DNA of 27,949 bases from a virus (IMGVR_UViG_3300028498_000045:1-27949); one strand, 5' to 3'. Shown: positions 12,718-25,144, numbered from the stretch's first letter. Translations and numbers: made by a program. Notes: generated by a model not told the origin, from the sequence alone.

Positions 12718-13302
12718 ATGACAACAGAGACTGCCCGCGCGTTTTACCGCCGCCAAGACTGGAACCCTGGCTATGGCCACAAGGTCAAGACACAGGGGCG
12801 GTTGGTAATAGTGGTGGTGGATGGCAAAGAGCTGGTGGACGTGGAGGCCAGCATTGCCCGCATGGCTGCCACTGCTGACCCCGGAAAAATGCACATGAGT
12901 GATGTCAACGAACGCCAACGTGAAACGCATCGTGGCAACGCCTACAGCGCGCCAACGCCCGAGCGAACGGGAGACTCGGGGGGGAGCAAAAACGCTAGTT
13001 ACATGCAGGCCAAAACAATGCGCGAGGTATTCGAGGCCAAGACAGCGCAGCTGGAATACGAAGAGCGCGTTGGCAAGTTCCTGAAAAAAACCGAAGTTGA
13101 CTCGGCCATTTTTGAAATTGCCCGGGCCTTGCGTGACGGCCTGACCAACTGCGCCCGGCGCATCGGCGCTGATGTGGCCGGGCTGACCAACGCGGCCGAC
13201 TGCGAAGCCGTGATTGACCGCGAGCACCGCGCGCTTCTCGAAAGCATGATGCACCGCATCGACAGCCAGCTCGGTGCCCGCCAGGAAAGCGCTGCCGCAT
13301 GA
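12718..13302 (+). CDS. terS: Terminase small subunit (Nu1-like role)
   Basis: This 194-aa protein has an N-terminal region that is poorly structured (about 1-95). The C-terminal half is helical: YMQAKTMREVFEAKTAQLEYEERVGKFLKKTEVDSAIFEIARALRDGL and SMMHRIDSQLGA. That coiled region (YEERVGKFL) is typical of Nu1-type small subunits that contact the large subunit. It precedes and overlaps terL by ATGA (13299-13302), the standard pairing. The first 95 residues lack an obvious winged helix, so the DNA-recognition part may be atypical. Confidence 0.75.
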   Translation: MTTETARAFYRRQDWNPGYGHKVKTQGRLVIVVVDGKELVDVEASIARMAATADPGKMHMSDVNERQRETHRGNAYSAPTPERTGDSGGSKNASYMQAKTMREVFEAKTAQLEYEERVGKFLKKTEVDSAIFEIARALRDGLTNCARRIGADVAGLTNAADCEAVIDREHRALLESMMHRIDSQLGARQESAAA

Positions 13303-15284
13303 CGCCAGGTGCCGAAATCGTGGGGCCCGCATTCAAACGCGGCCTCCAACCCGACCCCAACATGACCGTCGACCAATGGTCCGACGAATACATGATCATC
13401 CCCAAGGACTCCGGCGCCAACGAATACGGCAAATACCGCACCTCCCGCACCCCGCACGCCCGCATGGTCATGCAGGCCCTGTCCGACAACCACCCCTGCA
13501 AGCGCGTCGCCCTCATGGGCGCTTCGCAAATGCTCAAAACCCAAGTTGGGCTCAACTGGTTTGCCGCCAGCGTGCACCAGTCGCCCGCCAACTTCCTGTG
13601 GATCCTGCCCACCGGCAAGCTGGCCAAGCGCACCAGCACCCGCATCTCCAAAACCATCGCCGCCGTACCCCAACTGGTCGAGCGCGTGGCCGCGCCGCGA
13701 TCACGCGACTCCGTCAACACCCTGGACACCAAGGAATACATCGGCGGCTCGCTTTTCATCGTCACCGCTGGCGCGGCAGCAAATTTGTCCGAAGTGCCAG
13801 CCCGCCGCGTGCTATTCGACGAAGTCGACCGCGCCGAGGCCAACGTCAACGGTGAAGGAGACCCTGTCGCCCTGGCCGAAGCCCGGCAAACCACCTTCGA
13901 GCGCAACCGGAAAGCCTACTACCCCTCCTCGCCCACCATTACCGGCGAATCCATCATTGAAAAACTCTACCTGCGCGGCACCCAGCACGAAGCCCTGGCC
14001 GACTGCGTGCACTGCGGCCACGCCCAGCCGCTGCACTTCGAGCGCTTGACCCTGTCGGATGATGGACAAAACGCCATGTACCCCTGCACCGAGTGCGGCG
14101 CCTACATGATCGAAAGCGACAAAAGCCGTATGTTCGAGCGCGGCGCCTGGTCCGAAGGCGTCGCGGGCGACGGCGAAACAATCAGCTTCACCATCAGCGG
14201 CATGTTCCTCCCCTACGGCTGGCTGCCATGGATCGCCTTGCTGCGCGAATACGGCAAAGCCAAGGCCAAGCTAGAGGAGGGCAGTGAAGAATCCATGATC
14301 GCCTTCTACAACACCCGGCTGGCCCGCTGCTGGGAGCGCCAAAAAGAGCAGACCAAATACGACGAACTCATGCAGCGCGCCGAAGCCTACAAGCTGGGCC
14401 AAGTGCCTGCCGGCGGCCTCAAACTCACTGCCGCCATCGACACCCAAAACGACCGGCTAGAGCTCAAGGTAGTCGCCTGGGGGGAAGGCATGGAATCCTG
14501 GATCATCGACTACCAAATCATCCAGGGCTCACCCGCCGAGGACGCCACCTGGGAGCGCGCAGACGATCTGCTCAAAACCCGCTACCGCCACGCCGGCGGC
14601 GAAATGATGGCGATCGATGCGGCGTTCATCGACTCGGGCGGTGCGCACACGCAAGACGTGTACAACTTCACCTACACCCGCAAACGCCGCTACGTCTTCG
14701 CCATCAAAGGCGCCAGCCGCCCCGACCGCCCCATCCTCTGCGCCAAACCCACCATCGTGGACATCACCTGGCGCGGCAAGACCGAGCGCCAGGGCGCGCA
14801 ACTCTGGTTCATCGGCACCGACACCGCCAAAGATTACTTGGCCAGCCGCTGGAAAAAAGCCACTGGCCCCGGTGCCGTCCACTTCTCGCAAGACCTGCCC
14901 GAGGACTACTACAAACAACTCACCGCTGAGTACCGCACCCACGCCTACAAACGCGGCCGCAAGGTCAGCATCTGGGAGAAAAAGCAGGCCGACCGCAATG
15001 AAGCGCTCGACCTCATGGTCTACAACCTGGCCGCCGCCTACCACCTCGGCCTGCACAAAAAGACCGAATCCCACTGGCAACAGCTACGCGACCGCCTCAA
15101 CCCGCGCAACCAGGACCTATTCGCCCAGCTCGAACACCTGCAGCCCGCCACGCAAATCAGCATCGAAACAACACCTGCACCAATAAACACAAGCGCAGAA
15201 AGCTATCAAAACAGTAGCGTAAAAGCAGTGGCGAAACCCATCGTCCGCCCGGCCTCAACACACACATTCAGAAGAGATTGGTAA
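13299..15284 (+). CDS. terL: Terminase large subunit (GpA family)
   Basis: This 661-aa ATP-driven packaging motor and nuclease has a deviant Walker A, MGASQMLKT (73-81), and Walker B VLFDEVD (D174, E175). A zinc-ribbon pair lies at C236/C239 and C263/C266, and the nuclease domain carries acidic motifs in AAIDTQNDRLELKVVAWGEG and MAIDAAFIDSGG. Length fits lambda GpA. It overlaps terS. The last 40 residues differ in style: a degenerate interspersed repeat at 15189-15226 is translated as part of the tail (SAESYQNSSVKAV). Confidence 0.95.
   Translation: MTPGAEIVGPAFKRGLQPDPNMTVDQWSDEYMIIPKDSGANEYGKYRTSRTPHARMVMQALSDNHPCKRVALMGASQMLKTQVGLNWFAASVHQSPANFLWILPTGKLAKRTSTRISKTIAAVPQLVERVAAPRSRDSVNTLDTKEYIGGSLFIVTAGAAANLSEVPARRVLFDEVDRAEANVNGEGDPVALAEARQTTFERNRKAYYPSSPTITGESIIEKLYLRGTQHEALADCVHCGHAQPLHFERLTLSDDGQNAMYPCTECGAYMIESDKSRMFERGAWSEGVAGDGETISFTISGMFLPYGWLPWIALLREYGKAKAKLEEGSEESMIAFYNTRLARCWERQKEQTKYDELMQRAEAYKLGQVPAGGLKLTAAIDTQNDRLELKVVAWGEGMESWIIDYQIIQGSPAEDATWERADDLLKTRYRHAGGEMMAIDAAFIDSGGAHTQDVYNFTYTRKRRYVFAIKGASRPDRPILCAKPTIVDITWRGKTERQGAQLWFIGTDTAKDYLASRWKKATGPGAVHFSQDLPEDYYKQLTAEYRTHAYKRGRKVSIWEKKQADRNEALDLMVYNLAAAYHLGLHKKTESHWQQLRDRLNPRNQDLFAQLEHLQPATQISIETTPAPINTSAESYQNSSVKAVAKPIVRPASTHTFRRDW
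15189..15226 (-). repeat. Degenerate copy of the interspersed repeat inside terL
   Basis: On the minus strand it reads GCTACTGTTTTGATAGCTTT followed by CTGCGCTTGTG, close to GCTATTTAATTTATAGCTGC/TTGCGC at 2327-2387. It lies in the 3' end of terL and is translated in frame. The similarity is by eye. Confidence 0.35.
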
Positions 15285-15286
15285 CC

Positions 15287-15658
15287 ATGGCCTCCACACA
15301 GTCAAAACTCGACACCCTCGTCCAGACAGAACCCGACCTGGTCGACCGCATCTTTGACTACATCCTGTCCGACCCCGCCATGGCCGCCGCCTTGCGCAGC
15401 CGACAGACCGATCCCGTGGACGACCTCAAAGCCGCCGTGCGCGCCGAATTCCAGGGCGAAGAATGCTACATCACAGGCCGCCGCGTCCAAGCAGCCAACG
15501 TACTAGCTCTATTCAACGGCCGCAACGCCAGCGAAGTCGCCCGCCGCCTAAATATCAGCCGCGCCACCGTATATCGGCACATAAAACAGCCCGGAAAACC
15601 GCCGGCACTGCTAGAAACTGTCTCAAGTTTCCGGGAAATGAGACAGCCCGGCGGTTAA
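15287..15658 (+). CDS. Mor/C-family-like transcription regulator
   Basis: This 123-aa protein has an N-terminal half (about 1-60) resembling the dimerisation part of Mu Mor-type activators. The C-terminal helix-turn-helix is clear: NASEVARRLNISRATVYRHIKQ (about residues 80-101). Mor and C activate Mu middle and late genes; here the gene lies between terminase and gpW, so late-gene control is plausible. The last codons coincide with the palindrome at 15618-15646. The start at 15287 is preferred over 15278; the Shine-Dalgarno is weak. Confidence 0.7.
   Translation: MASTQSKLDTLVQTEPDLVDRIFDYILSDPAMAAALRSRQTDPVDDLKAAVRAEFQGEECYITGRRVQAANVLALFNGRNASEVARRLNISRATVYRHIKQPGKPPALLETVSSFREMRQPGG
15618..15646. 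promoter_or_regulatory. 27-bp palindrome, copy 1
   Basis: TGTCTCA (15619-15625), 13 bases, TGAGACA (15639-15645), with an inner TTTCC/GGAAA and one more pair outside. The copy at 23106-23132 matches it at 26 of 27 bases. It covers the end of the Mor-like gene and lies 51 bases before the gpW gene. It could be a protein-binding dyad or an RNA hairpin. Confidence 0.7.
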
Positions 15659-15697
15659 TTTAGTCGCTTTACAGCCCGACTAAACCACCCCCCACCC

Positions 15698-15916
15698 ATG
15701 GCATTTACACAAAGCGACCTCGACAACGTCAACTCCGCCATCGCCACGGGAGAGCTAAAGGTGGAGCTGAACGGTCGCATGGTCATGTACCGCAGCATTG
15801 ACGAGTTGCTAAAGGCCAGAACCATCATCACCAGCGACCTGGCCGCCAATTCGGCAGGCATTGGCACCCGGCGCGGCAGCTTTCGGGTCAACTTCTCCAC
15901 CCACCGGGGCGACTAA
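15698..15916 (+). CDS. gpW-like head-tail joining protein
   Basis: In this 72-aa protein, MAFTQSDLDNVNSAIATGELKVELNGRMVMYRSIDELLKAR is the typical opening of the gpW family: a helix, a beta hairpin with NGR and then YRSxDELLKAR. The length fits. In lambda gpW closes the head portal after packaging, letting the tail attach. The portal gene starts at the very next base, as in lambda W-B. Confidence 0.85.
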   Translation: MAFTQSDLDNVNSAIATGELKVELNGRMVMYRSIDELLKARTIITSDLAANSAGIGTRRGSFRVNFSTHRGD

Positions 15917-17812
15917 ATGGGCATCAATCTACTCGACCGCCTGATCGGCATCGTCGCCCCTGACACCGGCCTGCGCCGCCTGCGCTCACGCACCCTGCTA
16001 GAGCGCGCCTACGAAGGCGCCAGCCCGCGTGACGGCTGGAAACCGCGCCGCCCCGGAGCCAGCGCCAACACCGACCACCGCGCCGACGCCGCTACCCTGC
16101 GCGTTCGCGCCCGCGCCCTGGTGCAGAACTTGCCCTACATTTCGCGCGGCCTGGAGTCGCTGGTAGCCAACATCATCGGCACCGGCATCTCGCCGCGTTC
16201 GCTGGCCGCCAATGCCGAGGCCATCGACCAGCTCTGGAACGACTGGTGCCGCGTCGCCGACGCCGATGGACGCCTCGACTTCAACGGCCTGCAGGCCGCC
16301 GCCTACCAGGCCATGGAACAAGACGGCGAGGTTCTGGTTCGCCTGCGCAACCGCCGCCTCGAAGACGGCCTGCCCGTGCCGCTGCAAATACAACTGCTCG
16401 AAATCGACTGGCTCGACAGCAGCCGGCACGGCACCAATGGCCTCAACCACATCACCAACGGCATCGAATACGACCCCCTGGGCCGCGTAACCGCGTACTG
16501 GCTGTACGACCAGCACCCCGGCGAAATCAACGCCTACAACCGGGGGCGTTCCACCAGCTACGCCGTGTCAGCCGCCAACATCATCCATTTGTACAAACCA
16601 AGCCGACCCGGCCAAGGGCGCGGCATCACCCGCCTGGCGCCCATCATCGCCCGCGTGCGCGACCTGCAGCTCTACGAAGACGCCGAACTCCAGCGTAAAA
16701 ACCTGGAAACTCGCCTCTCCGTGGTTGCTAGCGGCGATGTGGCCAGCATGAGCATGACCGAGAGCGACAGCGAAGCCGCCGTGCGCGCCACCGGCGAACT
16801 CGGCACGCTGGCCAGCGGCGGCATCACCCAGGTGCCCGCCGGCGTGAACCTGACCGTGGTCGAACCCAAGGCTGCCCCCGGTTACGTCGATTACGTCAAA
16901 TACCAGCTCCATTTGATTGCCGCCGGCATGGGCGTCACCTATGAAATGCTCACCGGCGACGTGCGCGAAGTCAACTTCTCCAGCGCCCGCGTTGCCCTGC
17001 TTGAATTTCGGCGCGGCGCCGAACAAACCCAGTGGCTCACCCTGATCCCCAAGCTACTCGACCCCATCTGGCGCGCCTTCATCGACGCCGCCGTGCTCTC
17101 AGGCAAGCTGCGCACCACCGACTACAGCCTGGACTGGTCCACCCCCAAATGGGACTACGTCAACCCCGAGCAAGACGTCAAAGCCGACCTGGCCGAAATC
17201 TCCGGCGGCTTGTCCACTATCAGCGAAAAGCTGCGCCGCCGTGGTTACAAGCCCGAGCTGGTGTTTGCCGAACTCAAAAGCGACTTCGACCGTTTGCGCA
17301 AAGACGGCACGCTTGATTTGCTGCTGCAGCTGCAAACTGGCCAGGCCCCGCAAGTCAACCCGGCACCCGCCGCCGCTGCCCGCGCCGCTGAGCAGGCCGA
17401 CACCCATGCCGCCTTTGACCAGATCCGCCTGGACATGCAGCAACAGCAAAACATGATGGGCAACCTGCTGGCCGCTGCCGAGCGCGCTGCTGTGCAAGCG
17501 TCGGCACACCGCGAAACGCCTGCCGCGCCCGAAATGCACTTCCATGCGGCGCCCGTTACTGTATTTCCGCCCGAGGTGCATGTCACCGCGCCTGAAACCA
17601 CCGTCAACGTCGAAGCCGTCATGCCCGCGCCCAACGTGCAAATCCGCAACGAAATCACCACCCCCGAGCCGGTAGTACACCTCACGACCTCCGTGCAACC
17701 CGCCACCGTCGAAGTCACCGCCGTGCTGCCGGCCCGCACCACCGACACCGTCATCGAGCGCGATGCACGCGGCCACATCGTGCGCAGCAGCAGCACCGAG
17801 CGCGACACCTGA
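15917..17812 (+). CDS. Portal protein (lambda B family) with extended C-terminus
   Basis: In this 631-aa protein, RARALVQNLPYISRGLESLVANIIGTGISPRS, then EQDGEVLVRLRNR and the later VTYEMLTGDVREVNFSSARVALLEFRRG, are family landmarks of lambda-type portals; the core ends near residue 480. The remaining 150 residues are rich in Pro, Val, Thr and Glu (HAAPVTVFPPEVHVTAPETT and repeats of the same kind), a repetitive tail that may point into or out of the capsid. The portal forms the dodecameric DNA entry ring. It begins directly at the end of gpW. Confidence 0.93.
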   Translation: MGINLLDRLIGIVAPDTGLRRLRSRTLLERAYEGASPRDGWKPRRPGASANTDHRADAATLRVRARALVQNLPYISRGLESLVANIIGTGISPRSLAANAEAIDQLWNDWCRVADADGRLDFNGLQAAAYQAMEQDGEVLVRLRNRRLEDGLPVPLQIQLLEIDWLDSSRHGTNGLNHITNGIEYDPLGRVTAYWLYDQHPGEINAYNRGRSTSYAVSAANIIHLYKPSRPGQGRGITRLAPIIARVRDLQLYEDAELQRKNLETRLSVVASGDVASMSMTESDSEAAVRATGELGTLASGGITQVPAGVNLTVVEPKAAPGYVDYVKYQLHLIAAGMGVTYEMLTGDVREVNFSSARVALLEFRRGAEQTQWLTLIPKLLDPIWRAFIDAAVLSGKLRTTDYSLDWSTPKWDYVNPEQDVKADLAEISGGLSTISEKLRRRGYKPELVFAELKSDFDRLRKDGTLDLLLQLQTGQAPQVNPAPAAAARAAEQADTHAAFDQIRLDMQQQQNMMGNLLAAAERAAVQASAHRETPAAPEMHFHAAPVTVFPPEVHVTAPETTVNVEAVMPAPNVQIRNEITTPEPVVHLTTSVQPATVEVTAVLPARTTDTVIERDARGHIVRSSSTERDT

Positions 17813-17852
17813 ATTTCCCCCCTGTGCCCTCCCTTGATTTGACAAAGGTTTT

Positions 17853-18119
17853 TTGATGATCGCCTCTTCTATCGGAATGTTCACCACCGTGGACTTGAAC
17901 AACGCCGCCGCCAGCTACTACTGGCGCGGCGAAAAACTTGGCCACGTCATCTCCTGCCTGGCGATCCACTCGGGTAAGCAAAAGCGCGTATCTCTGCGCG
18001 TGCTCGACCCGGCCCGCGTGCAGCCCGCCCTTGACGCTGACGAACGCAAGCGCCTCAACAGCGTGTACGCCGAAATGCAGGCGGCCGACATCATCATCCT
18101 CAAATCAAAAGGAGCATAA
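17853..18119 (+). CDS. Small hypothetical phage protein
   Basis: In this 88-aa protein, MFTTVDLNNAAASYYWRGEKLGHVISCLAIHSGKQKRVSLRVLD suggests a small beta barrel or SH3-like fold; the C-terminal half is helical (ADERKRLNSVYAEMQAADII). An AAAGG stands before the ATG at 17853, and the second ATG (17856) is equally possible. It lies between portal and the large virion genes. Function unknown, perhaps a structural accessory. Confidence 0.6.
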   Translation: MMIASSIGMFTTVDLNNAAASYYWRGEKLGHVISCLAIHSGKQKRVSLRVLDPARVQPALDADERKRLNSVYAEMQAADIIILKSKGA

Positions 18120-18121
18120 CC

Positions 18122-18388
18122 ATGCCCAGTGAATTTCTACTTATCACCCCACCCGAATGGATCGTTGCGGAAAACCCCAACGACATGATTTTTGCGTATG
18201 GCGAAGAAGGCCTGGCCGCTGCCATCACGCGCCAGGAGTGGGGATTCTTGGAAGAAGTCGTGCGCGCAGGCGGCTACCTGCCCGAAGGCCAAACCCTGGT
18301 CGAGATGCGGATGCTGTCGATAGGCACCGACGATGCCACGCGCCTGCGCCTGTGGCTGCGCTTTGACCCCATCGCACCCCACGCCTGA
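18122..18388 (+). CDS. Small hypothetical phage protein
   Basis: This 88-aa acidic protein has an excellent AAAGGAG 10 bases before the ATG. SEFLLITPPEWIVAENPNDMIFAYGEEGLAAAI and VEMRMLSIGTDDATRLRLWLRF show alternating strands and helices. It is not recognised as a family. It immediately follows the previous small gene and precedes the large surface protein, so it probably belongs to the virion assembly module. Confidence 0.6.
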   Translation: MPSEFLLITPPEWIVAENPNDMIFAYGEEGLAAAITRQEWGFLEEVVRAGGYLPEGQTLVEMRMLSIGTDDATRLRLWLRFDPIAPHA

Positions 18389-18412
18389 CCCCCTTAACCC
18401 CAAGCCTGACCC

Positions 18413-20671
18413 ATGCCCTCCATCCGCGACACCTCCTGGGCTACCACCACGGTAGCCACCGGAACCACGCTCACCATCCCAACGCCGACCTCGGCGGCCA
18501 ATGACCTGCTGCTGGCAGTGTTCATGGCCGATACCACAGGTGGTGCCTGGACGAGCGCGGGCTGGACGCATGTGGCAGGCTCACCGTTTCTCAACACCAG
18601 CCAGCTGATCGTTATGTGGCGGCTTGCCGTCGCCACCGAGGCAGTCAGCTACACCTTCACCGGCGGCACGGCCAGCTCCTACAACGGCGCGATCATCTCC
18701 ATCCAGGACGTCAACACCACCCTGCCGTTCGGCACCACGGCCGTCGTCAGCTTTGTGGCGCAGGCGGCGGCGGCCAAATTTACCTTGCCCTCGATCACCA
18801 CCACGGTGGCCAACTCCCTCGTCATGTACGCCTGCTGCAACAACAATTTGGGCGTGCCCTCACTGCTCGAAGGCCCGGTCGCTTCGCTGGTGGCCGCTGA
18901 CGGCGTGGCCGAATCCCTGGGCATCGGCTGGGGTTTCCAGGCTGCCACTGGCGCCACCTCGCTGGCCGTCGGCGCATCCAACGTCACCACCGGCGTGGGC
19001 GTCAAACTGGCGCTGCAGATTGCCCCACCGACGACCGGCGCGGTGGTCATTCCGGCCTACTGCGCCGCCGACCTGGCCGTGTATGTCAACCCCCTCAACG
19101 GCGTCACCGCATACAACGGCGACACCGCCATGGCAGCGACTGCCGACACCAACTTCGGCACCGCGCTGGGCGGCTTCACCGCCGCCGACGCAACCGTGGC
19201 AGCAGCCACCGACGTGGGCATCAACTCGTTCCACTCGGCCGCCCGCCTGAACAACGCCACCGGCACCAGCACCCTGGCTGGGGCTGAACTGGTGCTGGCC
19301 GTAGCCAACCGGCCCAGTGTCGCGGGCAAAAACATTCTGGTCCATGTGGGCCCCTCGACCGAAGGCCAGTTACAGCGCTTTTCCTCCATTGCCTCGGGCC
19401 GCGGCATCTGGTTTGGCATGCGCTCGGGCGCAGCCGCGAATTACAAAATCTGGCAGGTCTACGGCTCCGAACTGGGCTCGCTGCGCCACCAGCCGGTGGT
19501 GATCAACAGCGCTGCCCTGAATGTCAAGGCCACCAACGGCACGCTGGATCCGGCCATCATCCTGTCCTTTGGCTTCTGGCTCAGCGGCACCGGCGTGACG
19601 ACCACGGTGTGGGACTTTGCTGCCATCTGGGTGCTCGACACCACCACCATCTGCGGCGGCAACCTGGCCGGACCGCTGGACCTGCCGGGCATCGTGGCCT
19701 CGGCGGCCACGGGCAAGGAGCGCAAGAGCGTGCTGCGCCAGGGCGCCGGCCAGGCCTTGAGCTACCAGCCGCTGCAAATCGGCAACGGCGGTACCAACCC
19801 CACCTACCTGCTGCTGGACTCAACCGCGCTGGAATTCCCTGGCCAGTACAACGCTGCCAAAAAGCAGGTCACCTACAACTCCGTGGACAACGTGGCCGGC
19901 ATCACCTACTACGCCGGCGCCTCGGACACCATCAAACACCGCGACTCCGTCGTCTCCAGCCCGAGCAAATACCACTGGCGCATCCACGCCAGCAGCAGCG
20001 CCAGCGCAGCCTACGACTTCAACGGCCTGGCCCTGATCGGTGCCGGCGATGTGGTGCTGCGCAACGTCACCACCTTCACCGGGCTGTCCTTCGTTAACTG
20101 CACGCTCGTCACGCAAAACAGCGCGCCCGTCACCGCCAGCGTGGTGCGCAACTCAAAAATCCTGTCCAACCTGCCCTCGGCCATCAGCGCCTGCACGTTC
20201 ACCAGCGGCGGTACCGGCACTGGCAGCGCCATCGAGATCAATACGCCCGGTACCTACACGTTTTCAGGCAACACCTTTACCGGCTACGGCGCCAACGACA
20301 GCACTGACGCGGCCATCTACAACAACTCCGGCGGCGCGGTCACGATCAACGTCACCAACGCAGGCAACACGCCGACGATCCGCAACGGCACAGGGGCCAC
20401 CACCACCGTCAGCAGCGCCATCTCGCTGACACTTACCGGGCTGAAAACCGGCAGCGACATCGTCATTCTGGATGCGGGCTTGACCACTATCCGGGTGCAA
20501 GTGGACTCCCACCCATCGGACACCTACATCTACAACTTCACCGCCCCGGGCAACGTAGACATTGGCGTTATCAAGCAAGGGTTTGTCGTTTTCTACATCC
20601 GCGGCTTTGCCCTGCCACTGGCCAACACCTCGATTCCGATCAACCAGACTTTCGACCGAAATTACTCCTAA
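18413..20671 (+). CDS. Large beta-rich virion protein (surface or decoration-like)
   Basis: In this 752-aa protein the first about 200 residues (TLTIPTPTSAANDLLLAVFMADTTGG, then SAGWTHVAG and MWRLAVATEAVSYTFTGG) match a beta-sandwich pattern I know from phage-displayed surface proteins. The middle (about 220-440) looks like a lectin or jelly-roll fold. From about 530 to 680 short repeats with N, S, T and G (GDVVLRNVTTFTGLSFVNCTLV, GTYTFSGNTFTGYG) suggest a right-handed beta-helix, as in tailspikes. There is no catalytic motif. Its place between portal and capsid is unusual and favours a capsid-bound adhesin over a tail fibre; that is inference. Confidence 0.7.
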   Translation: MPSIRDTSWATTTVATGTTLTIPTPTSAANDLLLAVFMADTTGGAWTSAGWTHVAGSPFLNTSQLIVMWRLAVATEAVSYTFTGGTASSYNGAIISIQDVNTTLPFGTTAVVSFVAQAAAAKFTLPSITTTVANSLVMYACCNNNLGVPSLLEGPVASLVAADGVAESLGIGWGFQAATGATSLAVGASNVTTGVGVKLALQIAPPTTGAVVIPAYCAADLAVYVNPLNGVTAYNGDTAMAATADTNFGTALGGFTAADATVAAATDVGINSFHSAARLNNATGTSTLAGAELVLAVANRPSVAGKNILVHVGPSTEGQLQRFSSIASGRGIWFGMRSGAAANYKIWQVYGSELGSLRHQPVVINSAALNVKATNGTLDPAIILSFGFWLSGTGVTTTVWDFAAIWVLDTTTICGGNLAGPLDLPGIVASAATGKERKSVLRQGAGQALSYQPLQIGNGGTNPTYLLLDSTALEFPGQYNAAKKQVTYNSVDNVAGITYYAGASDTIKHRDSVVSSPSKYHWRIHASSSASAAYDFNGLALIGAGDVVLRNVTTFTGLSFVNCTLVTQNSAPVTASVVRNSKILSNLPSAISACTFTSGGTGTGSAIEINTPGTYTFSGNTFTGYGANDSTDAAIYNNSGGAVTINVTNAGNTPTIRNGTGATTTVSSAISLTLTGLKTGSDIVILDAGLTTIRVQVDSHPSDTYIYNFTAPGNVDIGVIKQGFVVFYIRGFALPLANTSIPINQTFDRNYS

Positions 20672-20683
20672 AGGGACTCCACC

Positions 20684-22324
20684 ATGGCAAAAATTACCAC
20701 CCGCGCCGGGCTCAATGTCGGCACCGAGCTGACCGTCGACGAGACCCTTAAAACCTTCACGCTCAACGTGGCGGGCAACCTGATCGCCAAAGACGGTGTC
20801 ACGCTGCAGGCGCTGTACTCCAAGTTTGTTGAACTGTGGGCGACAGCAAGCTACCAGGACTCAAGCTTCCCGATGTACGCCATTGATGCTTTGTCCGGCC
20901 AATTCCAGTTTGGCACCGACGGCTCGACCTACAACGGCTGGAAGCCCGCCACCGATGCCACCCGCCAGATGCTGCGCGACGGCGGCTGGTCCGAGTACAA
21001 CAGCTCGGGCACCTTGGCCCGCCAGTACGCCGGCATGGTGGGCCTGGGCGTGGTGTCCACGGGCGCGCAGCTGTACTACCAGCGCGCCGCTGCCGATGCA
21101 CCCGCTAACTTCACGTTCACCGACCAGGCCAACGAAGGCATCCAGGTGTACGGCGACCTGGCCGCCGACGCCACCACCACCACATTCGACAAGCGCACCT
21201 TCTTCAAAGGCTTTGTCCGCGAATACCAAAAAAAGTACAAAGACTCGGTGCTGGCCGACACCGGCAAGACCGCCACCGGCGCCAACCTGGTGAATCTGCT
21301 GCTGGCGAATGAAACCGACCTGGACATTTTGGTGGCCGACGCCAGCATCACCGCCTCGCCATACTCGGAGATCAACGTCAAGTACTTCGCCACCGCGTTT
21401 GCCAAAGACATCGACCTGATCGGCACGCCGCGCTCCAGCGGCATCGTGATCGATGTCGGCACCCACTCGGGCACCGATGGCGCGGGCGCTGCGGCGGCAG
21501 TCGCCATGACCACGGCAGCGGCCGGCATCACCATTGCCACCTACCTGGGCGGCACGCTGCGCATCCACAACGGCGCGGCCAAGGGCCTCTACACCATCAG
21601 CGCCACGGGCGGCAGCGCCACCTCGGTGCCGCTGACCACCGGCCTGCTGGGCGCGGCATCGGGGGCCAGCTTCACCTTGCAGCGCGCCACCCCTGTGGCA
21701 GCTACCCTGCAGCAGATCTACACCAAAATCCAGTTCCAGCTGCGCCAAAACAGCAACATCAATGCACTGGCCTCGGCCGGCGCGGTCACCGGCAAGACGG
21801 CTTCGATCCTGCTCAACTTCGTGGGCAGTGCGCTCAAGGCGGGCTTTTTTGCCCCAACCAACCCCAACGGCGGCGGCACCGGCGTGACATTGCAGGGCTA
21901 CGCCAGCACCGACGTCAACAGCTTCACTAGCTACGACAACGGCGCAGCCACCCGCGACTACCCGTATGCGGCCGCCGGCACCATCAACTTCAACACCCCG
22001 CTGGTGGGCGCAAGCTCCAGTTACCGCCTCATGTTCACAGCCCCACCTGGCGCGGGCAACGATTACGGCGAGTCGGGCGCGATCACGGTCAACAACGTCG
22101 CCGGCACGCCGATCACCGGCGCCATCAGCACCAGCTCGATTGCCTTTGACTACGACTACGACGGCAACGTACAGGGCGGGGCCACGGCCGGTACCGACCG
22201 CGCCGTGACACTGATCGGCATCAAGCCAGGCACCGGAAAATTTGTAGCCGCCACGGGCACCTTGTCGCGCTCCAAGGCCATCAGCTTGTCCCTGGTGGCC
22301 GAAGCCGACCGGGTCTACGCGTAA
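20684..22324 (+). CDS. Large virion structural protein of unknown role
   Basis: This 546-aa protein has AAAGG 9 bases before the ATG. Its N-terminus (DETLKTFTLNVAGNLIAKDGVTLQALYSKFVELW) looks like a helical or coiled attachment segment; DSSFPMYAIDALSGQFQFGTDGSTYNGWKPA follows. A Thr/Ala/Gly-rich middle (about 265-330) and a beta-rich end (SIAFDYDYDGNVQGGATAGTDRAVTLIGIKPG) suggest an exposed, repetitive protein. It sits in one block with the previous gene and the next two. I do not know a family; decoration, spike or scaffold are all possible. Confidence 0.65.
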   Translation: MAKITTRAGLNVGTELTVDETLKTFTLNVAGNLIAKDGVTLQALYSKFVELWATASYQDSSFPMYAIDALSGQFQFGTDGSTYNGWKPATDATRQMLRDGGWSEYNSSGTLARQYAGMVGLGVVSTGAQLYYQRAAADAPANFTFTDQANEGIQVYGDLAADATTTTFDKRTFFKGFVREYQKKYKDSVLADTGKTATGANLVNLLLANETDLDILVADASITASPYSEINVKYFATAFAKDIDLIGTPRSSGIVIDVGTHSGTDGAGAAAAVAMTTAAAGITIATYLGGTLRIHNGAAKGLYTISATGGSATSVPLTTGLLGAASGASFTLQRATPVAATLQQIYTKIQFQLRQNSNINALASAGAVTGKTASILLNFVGSALKAGFFAPTNPNGGGTGVTLQGYASTDVNSFTSYDNGAATRDYPYAAAGTINFNTPLVGASSSYRLMFTAPPGAGNDYGESGAITVNNVAGTPITGAISTSSIAFDYDYDGNVQGGATAGTDRAVTLIGIKPGTGKFVAATGTLSRSKAISLSLVAEADRVYA

Positions 22325-22330
22325 CCCGCT

Positions 22331-22891
22331 GTGGCCCTGACGTTCGACAGCGCCGCCAAGCGCATCGTGCTCGACAGCGCCAGCACCTCGGCCCAAGCCA
22401 TCTATGCGGCCTGGGCCGACTGGATGGTGCTGTCAGACAATGCCAAACACCTGCCCGCATTTCGCACGCTGGGCGGCGATGACCTGGGCGGCGGCTTGAG
22501 CGTGCCGCCCTACTATTTTTTGATGAACGGCTGGCGGGTTCGCCCCATGGAAGCCAGCCAGACCCTGACCGTCACCGGCAACTTGTTTGTCGACGGCGGC
22601 GGCGATGCGGTGGTGAGCACGCTGGGCGTGTTCAATGTGCTGACCAAGTTGGTCGTGCCCACCCTGGCCATGGGCATTGCCACAGGCGGGGGATCCAGCC
22701 CGTCGGCCATCGCGGTGCAAGTGCGCGCCGAGCTGGCGGCCGAGCTGCTGCGCATCCTTGAGCTGGCGGCCGTGCATGGGCTGGTTCCTGGCAGCGCCCT
22801 GGTGGTAACGCCCACCACCCGGGTGGCTGGCACGGTGCAGCAAACCATCACCGACCTCGGCGGCACCGTCACCGTGGCGCGAAACCCATGA
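22331..22891 (+). CDS. Hypothetical virion-associated protein
   Basis: This 186-aa protein has a GTG start 6 bases after the previous stop, with no strong Shine-Dalgarno, so translation is probably coupled. ALTFDSAAKRIVLDSASTSAQAIYAAWADWMVLSDNAKHLPAFRTLGGDDLGGG is a recurring opening in phage structural modules next to large fibre-like genes; the end has an AEL-rich helix and a beta segment. It may join the large beta protein to the capsid or serve assembly. The stop overlaps the next start by 4 bases. Confidence 0.6.
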   Translation: MALTFDSAAKRIVLDSASTSAQAIYAAWADWMVLSDNAKHLPAFRTLGGDDLGGGLSVPPYYFLMNGWRVRPMEASQTLTVTGNLFVDGGGDAVVSTLGVFNVLTKLVVPTLAMGIATGGGSSPSAIAVQVRAELAAELLRILELAAVHGLVPGSALVVTPTTRVAGTVQQTITDLGGTVTVARNP

Positions 22892-23103
22892 ATCCGCTAG
22901 CCGTTGCCATGCAGGGTCTGGGCTTTGGCCTGGCCCAGATGGCCCTGCAGGGCTTGCTCAACTTTGTGGCGCAAGAGGTCATCAAATACGAGCAGGGCGG
23001 GGGTGGCCTGGCCCGCCGCCGGGCACGCCGCATCACCCCCGATTGGGTACCGGCGGCACCGCTAGAAGAAGACGAAGCGCTGCTGCTGATCGGCCTGTTT
23101 TAA
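22888..23103 (+). CDS. Small hypothetical protein
   Basis: This 71-aa protein has its start in a 4-bp ATGA overlap. MQGLGFGLAQMALQGLLNFVAQEVIKYEQGGGGLARRRARRI is an amphipathic or weakly hydrophobic helix followed by a basic cluster, then an acidic C-terminus (PLEEDEALLLIGLF). It could be membrane-associated or a peptide binding to capsid or DNA. The palindrome copy 2 begins right after its stop. Confidence 0.55.
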   Translation: MNPLAVAMQGLGFGLAQMALQGLLNFVAQEVIKYEQGGGGLARRRARRITPDWVPAAPLEEDEALLLIGLF

Positions 23104-23134
23104 ATTGTCTCAATTTTCCGGGAAATGAGACAGT
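23104..23134. promoter_or_regulatory. 27-bp palindrome, copy 2
   Basis: TGTCTCA (23106-23112), 13 bases, TGAGACA (23126-23132); it differs from copy 1 at a single position. The stem extends by a T-G wobble and an A-T pair. It lies only 23 bases before the ATG of the capsid gene, too close for an activator of a normal promoter unless the mRNA starts inside it. Confidence 0.7.
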
Positions 23135-23155
23135 CGCCCGCCCAACATAGGCGGC

Positions 23156-25144
23156 ATGACAGAGAAAAACCGCTTTTTACCGACCCAGCTGCGCGCCGCG
23201 TCCATCGCGCCGTCCACCTACAACGCTGCAAACCGTACCGTTGAAGTCGTCTGGACCACCGGCGCCATCGTGCGGCGTATGGACTACTGGTCCGGCCAGG
23301 CGTATGACGAAGAACTGGTGGTCGACGTATCGGCCATCGACATGACGCGTCTAAACAATGGCAGCGCCCCCGTTCTCAACACCCACAGCAGCAACACCCT
23401 GGACGACGTCATCGGCGTAGTCGAGCGCGCCTGGGTCGCCAACGGCGAAGGCCGCGCCGTGCTGCGCCTGTCCGAGCGCGAAGAAGTCGCCGGCCTGGTG
23501 CGTGACATCGAGTCGGGAATCATCAAAAACATCAGCTGCGGCTACAACGTCCGCAAATACGAAATCACCAGCGCCGCCAACCGCACCGACGGCGGCACCG
23601 TCCCGCTGTACCGCGCCGTGGACTGGGAGCCGGCCGAATTGTCCTTCGTGGCCATCCCCGCCGATGCTCTCAGCGGCACCCGCAGCGACACCGCACGCGG
23701 CGCTGATTGCCAATTTTCTCTTTCTGCAGCACCCGCTGTCAACCAACGGGCAGCTGCCCATATCACCCTCCAGGAGTCTTCAATGGATCCAGTTATCGAA
23801 GCCGGCGGCGCACCCGCAACGCCCGTCATCATTGCCGCTACGCCGCCTGCTGTTGCCATCGACACCCGCGCCGCCGACATCACCGACCTGTGCGTGCGCC
23901 ACGGCACCCCCACCCTGGCCTCCGGCATGATCCGCAGCGGCCAGACGCTCGACCAGGCCCGCGCCGCCGTGCTGACCGAACTTGCCGTGCGTGACGCCCA
24001 GGCCGGTGGCCACCGCAACGTCTCCAGCATCCAGACCGTGCAAGACGGCATGCAAGTGCGCATGGCCGGTATCGAGCAAGCCATCCTGCACCGCATCGCC
24101 CCAGGCACCAAGATTGACGACAACGGCCGCCAGTACCGGGGCATGAGCCTGATCGAAATCGGCCGCGACTTCCTGGAAGCGCACAACGTCCAGACGCGCG
24201 GGCAAGACCGCATGCAGCTCGCCGGCTCCATCCTGCATTTCCGCGCCGGCGGCATGCACGGCTCGTCCGATTTCTCCACCCTGTTCGCCAACGTCGCCAA
24301 CAAGCGTTTGCGCAATGCCTACGACGAAAACCCCGGCACTTACGCCCTGTGGGCCCGCCGCGCACCGAACGCACCGGACTTTAAAAACCTGTCGGTCGCC
24401 CAGCTGTCCGGCGCGCCCGACCTGCTGCAGACCAACGAGCACGGCGAATTTAAATACGGCAAGATGACCGACGGCGGCGAATCCTACGCCGTGCTGACCT
24501 ACGGCCGCATCGTCAGTCTGACGCGCCAGGCCATCGTCAATGACGACCTGCGTGCCTTCGAGCGCCTGGTATCGGCCTTTGGTTTTGCCGCCCGTCGCCT
24601 GGAAAACCGCACCGTTTACGCCCAGCTCACGGCCAACGCCGCGTTGGCCGATGGCGTGGCACTGTTCCATACCACCCACACCAACCTGGGCAGCGGCGCA
24701 GGCAGCGTGCTGCAAATGTCGGCGCTCACCACCGCACGCACCGCCATGCGCCTGCAAAAAGGCCTGGCCAATGAAGAGCTGAGCCTTGCGCCCAGCTACC
24801 TCATCGTTCCTGCCGCGCTGGAACAAACCGCCTACCAGCTCACTAGCACCAGCTACGTGCCCGCCAAGCAAAGCGACGTGAACGAATTCCGCACCGGCGG
24901 CCGCACCGCGCTCGAAGCCATTGTTGAACCCATCCTGGACGGCAACAGCGCCACCGCCTGGTACCTGGCCGCTGCCAACTCGCAGGTCGACACCGTCGAA
25001 TACTGCTACCTCGACGGCGCAGAGGGGCCCATGATCGAAAGCGACGTCGGCTTCGAGACCGACGGCATCAGCTACAAATGCCGCCTCGATTTCGCCGCCA
25101 AGGCCATCGACTACCGCGGCGTCTACAAAGCCGCCGGCGTCTAA
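23156..25144 (+). CDS. Prohead protease fused to major capsid protein
   Basis: In this 662-aa protein, residues about 1-175 form a HK97-type prohead protease: H77 in LNTHSSNTLDDVIG, S127 in IKNISCGYN and WEPAELSFVAIPADA (157-171) are landmarks of the family. Residues about 210-320 form a scaffold-like delta region. From about 370 onward there is a Mu-gpT-type major head protein (FSTLFANVANKRLRNAYDE, GEFKYGKMTDGGESYAVLTYG, AALEQTAYQLTSTSYVPAK). Fusions of this type occur in several phages. A strong internal start at 23783 would give the capsid part alone. Confidence 0.92.
   Translation: MTEKNRFLPTQLRAASIAPSTYNAANRTVEVVWTTGAIVRRMDYWSGQAYDEELVVDVSAIDMTRLNNGSAPVLNTHSSNTLDDVIGVVERAWVANGEGRAVLRLSEREEVAGLVRDIESGIIKNISCGYNVRKYEITSAANRTDGGTVPLYRAVDWEPAELSFVAIPADALSGTRSDTARGADCQFSLSAAPAVNQRAAAHITLQESSMDPVIEAGGAPATPVIIAATPPAVAIDTRAADITDLCVRHGTPTLASGMIRSGQTLDQARAAVLTELAVRDAQAGGHRNVSSIQTVQDGMQVRMAGIEQAILHRIAPGTKIDDNGRQYRGMSLIEIGRDFLEAHNVQTRGQDRMQLAGSILHFRAGGMHGSSDFSTLFANVANKRLRNAYDENPGTYALWARRAPNAPDFKNLSVAQLSGAPDLLQTNEHGEFKYGKMTDGGESYAVLTYGRIVSLTRQAIVNDDLRAFERLVSAFGFAARRLENRTVYAQLTANAALADGVALFHTTHTNLGSGAGSVLQMSALTTARTAMRLQKGLANEELSLAPSYLIVPAALEQTAYQLTSTSYVPAKQSDVNEFRTGGRTALEAIVEPILDGNSATAWYLAAANSQVDTVEYCYLDGAEGPMIESDVGFETDGISYKCRLDFAAKAIDYRGVYKAAGV
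23772..23785 (+). promoter_or_regulatory. Internal ribosome binding site and start in the protease-capsid gene
   Basis: AGGAG (23772-23776) lies 6 bases before an in-frame ATG (23783, residue 210). Translation from here would make a 453-aa capsid protein without the protease. This recalls the nested C/Nu3 genes of lambda and would supply the large excess of capsid over protease. Confidence 0.65.

Follow-up and report, generated by a model that had tools for sequence, protein, structure and literature searches.

The two near-identical palindromes of the window (the whole 27,949-nt stretch of viral DNA that was analysed) are very probably the operators of a Mor-like activator, encoded in the same stretch, which would switch on two late operons, one comprising gpW and portal and the other running from the capsid gene onward. 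In the mechanism that we propose from the sequence, the recognition helices of one symmetric dimer, or of two dimers, would read GTCTCA and TGAGAC. Each operator would cover positions from about -48 to about -24 in a promoter endowed with a -10 box and devoid of a -35 hexamer, and the bound activator would replace the -35 element and recruit the host RNA polymerase. We infer binding, the exact transcription starts and also the timing: the Mor-like gene lies within the terminase transcript and is thus presumably expressed ahead of the structural genes.

Of the two palindromes, copy 1 (TGTCTCAAGTTTCCGGGAAATGAGACA) overlaps the Mor-like gene at its 3' end and copy 2 (TGTCTCAATTTTCCGGGAAATGAGACA) stops 23 bases 5' of the capsid ATG (Table 1). 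Over 25-27 bp they differ by a single base. An earlier note had described them as 27-bp palindromes with one difference, located at the end of the Mor-like gene before gpW and 23 bases before the capsid gene; both the sequences and the positions proved correct, and no other such pair exists in the window. When up to three mismatches are allowed, TGTCTCA-N13-TGAGACA matches the window at these two places only, against a mean of 0.48 matches to the same degenerate pattern (3 mismatches) in the shuffled window; by our own arithmetic, the number of pairs of 27-mers with at most one difference expected by chance in 28 kb is about 4e-6. The note had also pointed to additional outer pairs, C15618-G15646 and T23105-G23133. 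These do exist as described, but are not conserved in relatives. The seventh arm pair itself, T-A in the window, is mostly broken among the relatives' sites, where the base 5' of GTCTCA is C in 40/56 and its partner A in 49/56. The conserved arms are therefore 6 bp long, and the outer pairing is a matter of chance.

Table 1. Coordinates of the genes, candidate operators and predicted promoter elements in the window
Feature	Position	Strand	Remarks
Terminase large subunit	13299..15284	+	PF05876/PF20454; overlaps start of Mor-like gene; both late promoters lie downstream
Mor/C-family DNA-binding protein gene	15278..15658	+	Homologue profile versus Mu Mor/C; Pfam Mor
Operator 1 (candidate)	15619..15645	+	GTCTCA-N13-TGAGAC at 15620-15644; overlaps 3' end of Mor-like gene
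-10 box of gpW promoter, TAATTT	15656..15661	+	Predicted start ~15668
gpW-like head-tail adaptor	15698..15916	+	First gene of operon 1; phrog_2545, E 3e-20
Portal protein	15917..17812	+	Operon 1; PF05136, E 1e-94
Cargo slot, portal stop to operator 2	17813..23106	+	5.3 kb; beta-rich proteins, family unassigned
Operator 2 (candidate)	23106..23132	+	GTCTCA-N13-TGAGAC at 23107-23131
-10 box of capsid promoter, CAACAT	23143..23148	+	-12 not T, likewise in all relatives
Major capsid/protease gene	23156..25144	+	phrog_4523 from residue 1; ATG 7 nt past -10 box

A search of the viral collection with a pattern containing both arms and the inner TTT/GGAAA returned 76 stretches, i.e. 92 sites when the window's two are counted. 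Nearly all are found at two homologous places, directly before gpW and directly before the capsid gene, and the gpW-side site directly follows a small helix-turn-helix gene, itself situated after the terminase gene. The phages concerned are diverse, the identity of their portal and capsid proteins to those of the window going down to about 47%. We then considered 50 distinct relatives, nearly all of which were fetched via the helix-turn-helix protein, so without selection on the palindrome. Palindrome pairs were picked in them without using the -10 box and were registered on the GT...AC anchor; the pair was wrongly picked in one phage, L126, which is included in the pair and spacing counts and left out of later ones. 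A matching pair before gpW and before the capsid gene was present in 50/50 phages. The gap between half-sites was N13 in 35 phages, N14 in 6, N15 in 6 and N16 in 3 (L126 included), and was always the same at the two places within a phage. Of 30 long related records, 26 contained exactly two copies of GTCTCA-N13..16-TGAGAC and two contained three; L143 had a single one, and L122, the sites of which are GTGACA, had none. Three operator-like sites, not two, were seen in each of the L063 and L075 contigs; the third one of L075 has another core and N14 spacing, and perhaps comes from another element. RcKemmy (Rhodobacter) and PBb001 (Bordetella), which have a related portal and are without a Mor-like gene, contain no such pair.

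A search of 84,980 genomes of bacteria and archaea detected only 7 matching stretches. In 6 cases the stretch is the gpW/capsid region of a prophage (Delftia, Acidovorax, Rhodoferax, Comamonas and one unplaced proteobacterium). The remaining one, in a Clostridia bin (L084), is without phage genes and without a -10 box and was put down to chance. Given that six of the seven stretches lie at prophage gpW/capsid genes, the idea of a site for a host regulator was rejected; this search for copies across host chromosomes, proposed as a check in the earlier note, leaves the reading as phage protein sites unrefuted. Isolated phages gave no megablast match to the region, no isolated phage within the collection searched carries the Mor-like gene, and no report of the operator was found in the literature searched.

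Two further conserved bases lie outside of the palindromes. All of 56 unique aligned sites (56/56) have an A at 37 and a T at 41 bases from the first G of the palindrome, that is at +12 and +16 when counted from the base following it, and these bases were never required by the search pattern. Their positions fit a -10 box, of which they would be -11A and -7T. The A...T combination, likewise unselected for, is present at the fixed distance before gpW in 49/50 phages and before the capsid gene in 48/50; the right half-site is separated from the -10 box by a constant 11 nt while the half-site gap varies from 13 to 16. The box is TANNNT before gpW in 47/50 phages, whereas before the capsid gene a T is found at its first position (-12) in 0/50 (35 C, 10 G and 5 A), so that the two promoters are probably of unequal strength. 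With the -10 box taken as -12 to -7, the half-sites occupy about -48 to -43 and about -29 to -24, 19-22 bp apart. A -35 hexamer is absent from both promoters, and the position it would have occupied falls between the half-sites. This absence is the reason why a sigma-70 promoter and terminator scan around operator 1 gave no promoter. Within one phage, both copies have nearly identical cores between the half-sites; from one phage to another the core can be fully different with the copies still alike (L097, L134, L148). This likeness extends beyond what two helix-turn-helix contacts would impose, which suggests that something else also reads the core.

An operator placed over the -35 position could also block the polymerase, and sequence cannot reveal the direction of action: the Mor-like protein, once bound to the palindromes, might thus chiefly repress the two operons or serve them as a dual switch. 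We consider this improbable, since at two promoters without a -35 hexamer the polymerase would need help, and since Mu Mor and Mu C, the closest relatives to have been characterised, are activators (PMC4287176). It is on account of the family and of the absent hexamer that we infer activation rather than repression.

The capsid ATG lies 6-8 nt past the -10 box in 50/50 phages (7 nt in 36), and the Shine-Dalgarno potential before it is close to nil, with a mean of -2.0 kcal/mol and 4% of the values at -4.5 or better, versus a mean of -6.2 and 84% at -4.5 or better for the portal gene of the same phages. The simplest reading is that capsid transcription starts at the AUG; a leaderless mRNA is thus predicted for a major structural gene, to which read-through from the gpW promoter would add a longer capsid transcript. 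The predicted leader of gpW is about 30 nt long in the window, and gpW is seemingly leaderless too in some relatives (L012, L016, L165 and L166).

Assignment of the candidate activator was made through its relatives. A profile built from 26 homologues and run against the PDB had Mu Mor as best match (1rr7, E 4.4e-6, residues 20-115 aligned to 27-122, which takes in the N-terminal part as well as the helix-turn-helix) and also matched the Mu C structures 9l0x (E 5e-4) and 9vw8. Pfam Mor (PF08765) matches 25/26 of the homologues, with a best E-value of 4.5e-9; the window's own protein reaches 14.9 bits for a cut-off of 24.9. An AlphaFold model of the monomer was weak (pLDDT 72, pTM 0.38). Its helix-turn-helix part resembles 9l0y_M (Z 6.0) and 1rr7 (Z 5.9), but unrelated helix-turn-helix proteins score equally, and Foldseek/VIA returned generic helix-turn-helix matches only. 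By sequence profile, the product of the window gene is a member of the Mor/C family, distantly related to Mu Mor and C; an internal ATG at 15287 may be its true start. The same genomic place is occupied in Stenotrophomonas phage S1 by gp5 (L154:5357-5677), annotated 'putative peptidase a', which looks like a very divergent Mor-type DNA-binding protein; no GT...AC operator pair was found in that phage.

The recognition helix, S94-R95-A96-T97-V98-Y99-R100 in the window, covaries with the half-site. In most phages, SRATVYR or a near variant goes with GTCTCA. Proteins with R96 go with GTGNCA (6/6, never elsewhere; Fisher 9e-9), those with H94 with GTCGCA (5/5, never elsewhere; 1e-7) and those with T96 with a C at base 4, as GTCCCA or GTTCCA (5/5; 2e-6). 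GTCCCA is also found without T96 in two other phages, and V96 with GTTTCA was seen in one case. On the portal-protein tree the changes are spread over several lineages, and 6 independent pairs agree with 0 disagreeing (sign test, p 0.03), a tree that only partly corrects for kinship among the 50 phages. The rule was applied to 33 further contigs, absent from the first list: 28 of them yielded sites and 5 gave none. It predicted 26 of the 28 sites (24 default, one H94 and one T96); as some of these contigs are near phages of the palindrome search, the H94 and T96 cases alone are sharp tests. The rule concerning serine-96 failed (0/2): both S96 proteins keep GTCTCA, which disproves this element of the code. 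What emerges is a readable protein-DNA recognition code for a Mor/C-family helix, for which nature has provided swaps that can be put to the test. Together with the pairs at the same places, the fixed -10 box and the two sites counted in 26/30 records, this covariation strongly supports, at the level of sequence, the suggestion of the earlier note that the palindromes are sites for the Mor-like protein.

Joint changes in the two arms could also be expected of RNA. According to such a reading, the palindromes would form paired stem-loops in the late mRNA and govern its processing or translation: the RNA is foldable (-14.1 and -10.5 kcal/mol) and the arms co-vary between phages. The fold z-scores are merely about -1.4 (both strands folded), and a symmetric dimer likewise forces the arms to change jointly; here, the arms track the protein helix. 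The inner stem is fully paired in only 36/70 N13 sites, and the seventh or outer pair is broken in most sites. Over 600 arm positions the mismatches were A.C (11), A.G (6), G.U (2), C.C (2) and A.A (1); an RNA stem would favour G.U, so the predominance of A.C argues against RNA. Each site, moreover, reaches no further than about -24 relative to its own promoter, and would thus be absent from the transcript of that promoter. In phages where the operator overlaps the activator gene, it does so at the 3' end and in differing reading frames; in others it lies outside the gene. This points to a constraint on DNA. No Rfam family was found at either palindrome. RNA structure, slightly favoured in the earlier note, is contradicted by the broken inner stems, the 11 A.C against 2 G.U and the unconserved outer pairs, and we regard it as extremely improbable.

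The palindromes might alternatively be places of recombination, as crossover sites or, as the earlier note had envisaged, as boundaries of a structural module open to exchange. They are direct copies bracketing a region the 3' part of which varies from 0 to 5.3 kb, and homology at the copies could occasionally aid exchange. Yet in 31/50 phages no more than 82 bp separate the portal stop from the capsid operator, compared with 5.3 kb in the window. Both palindromes are kept in these phages with almost no insert, and a pair flanking a nearly empty slot is not the pair of ends of an insert. Recombination also accounts poorly for the constant orientation, the same downstream genes and the fixed -10 box, and leaves the helix covariation unexplained. 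This reading is therefore not needed, and we give it hardly any credence. If the palindromes are activator operators, location of the capsid promoter downstream of the slot would make cargo tolerable there. The beta-rich proteins that the slot encodes in the window (752, 546, 186 and 71 aa) have no Pfam or PHROG match.

The proposed activator circuit has counterparts in phage Mu. At Mu Pm, the Mor dyad is 16 bp long and extends from -51 to -36 (centre -43.5), and the promoter, used by the host polymerase, has a -10 box and is without a -35 hexamer (PMC4287176). The likeness lies in a homologous protein, a dyad overlapping the -35 region, a promoter with a -10 box only and, as proposed here, use of the host polymerase; the Mor/C-type combination of a dyad and a promoter without -35 hexamer is seen in our sequences in the form of the pairs, the -10 distance and the covariation. 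The geometry of Pm (a 16-bp dyad at -43.5) is not found: the dyad is here 25-28 bp long and centred at about -36, with 13-16 bp between 6-bp half-sites. The targets differ too: here they are head genes, and the phages have a GpA-type terminase and a lambda-family portal. Mu C offers another parallel, in that one activator serves the late promoters lys, I, P and mom, each with its own dyad (PMC4287176, PMC4461284). A single family activator would likewise serve several late promoters with dyads here, but these are two instead of four, the sequence and spacing of the sites are other, and the capsid AUG is at the predicted start. The logic is thus Mu-like, the geometry is not. A further resemblance is with lambda CII, the half-sites of which also flank the -35 position of the activated promoter; CII is an unrelated protein and reads direct repeats. 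In P2 Ogr/P4 Delta, late activator sites are common to helper and satellite, to be compared with the satellite operators described below; there, the activators are zinc-finger proteins and the sites are other.

The operator followed by a -10 box was also found before AlpA-family genes in two contigs, at L003:493-519 (-) and L004:8227-8253 (-); it is missing from L220, a third AlpA relative. The two contigs, which are fragments, contain primase and capsid genes, with an integrase in L003, and no Mor-like gene was seen in them. They look like capsid-bearing satellites, and could sense the activator of a helper. Tentatively, and with slightly less than even confidence, we propose a family-wide switch, undescribed in the literature searched: a Mor-like activator bound to half-sites about two helical turns apart, on either side of the -35 position, would drive a leaderless capsid mRNA, and capsid-bearing satellites would listen through the alpA operator. 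Such operators offer a means of telling which satellites depend on which helper. More generally, the paired operators provide a testable circuit of late-gene control in prophages of Comamonadaceae and relatives, a large group that is mostly uncultivated. As to the window itself, a partial tRNA match (Rfam RF00005) at 1-51 adjoins an integrase gene at 187-1173, and the two probably mark the attachment site.
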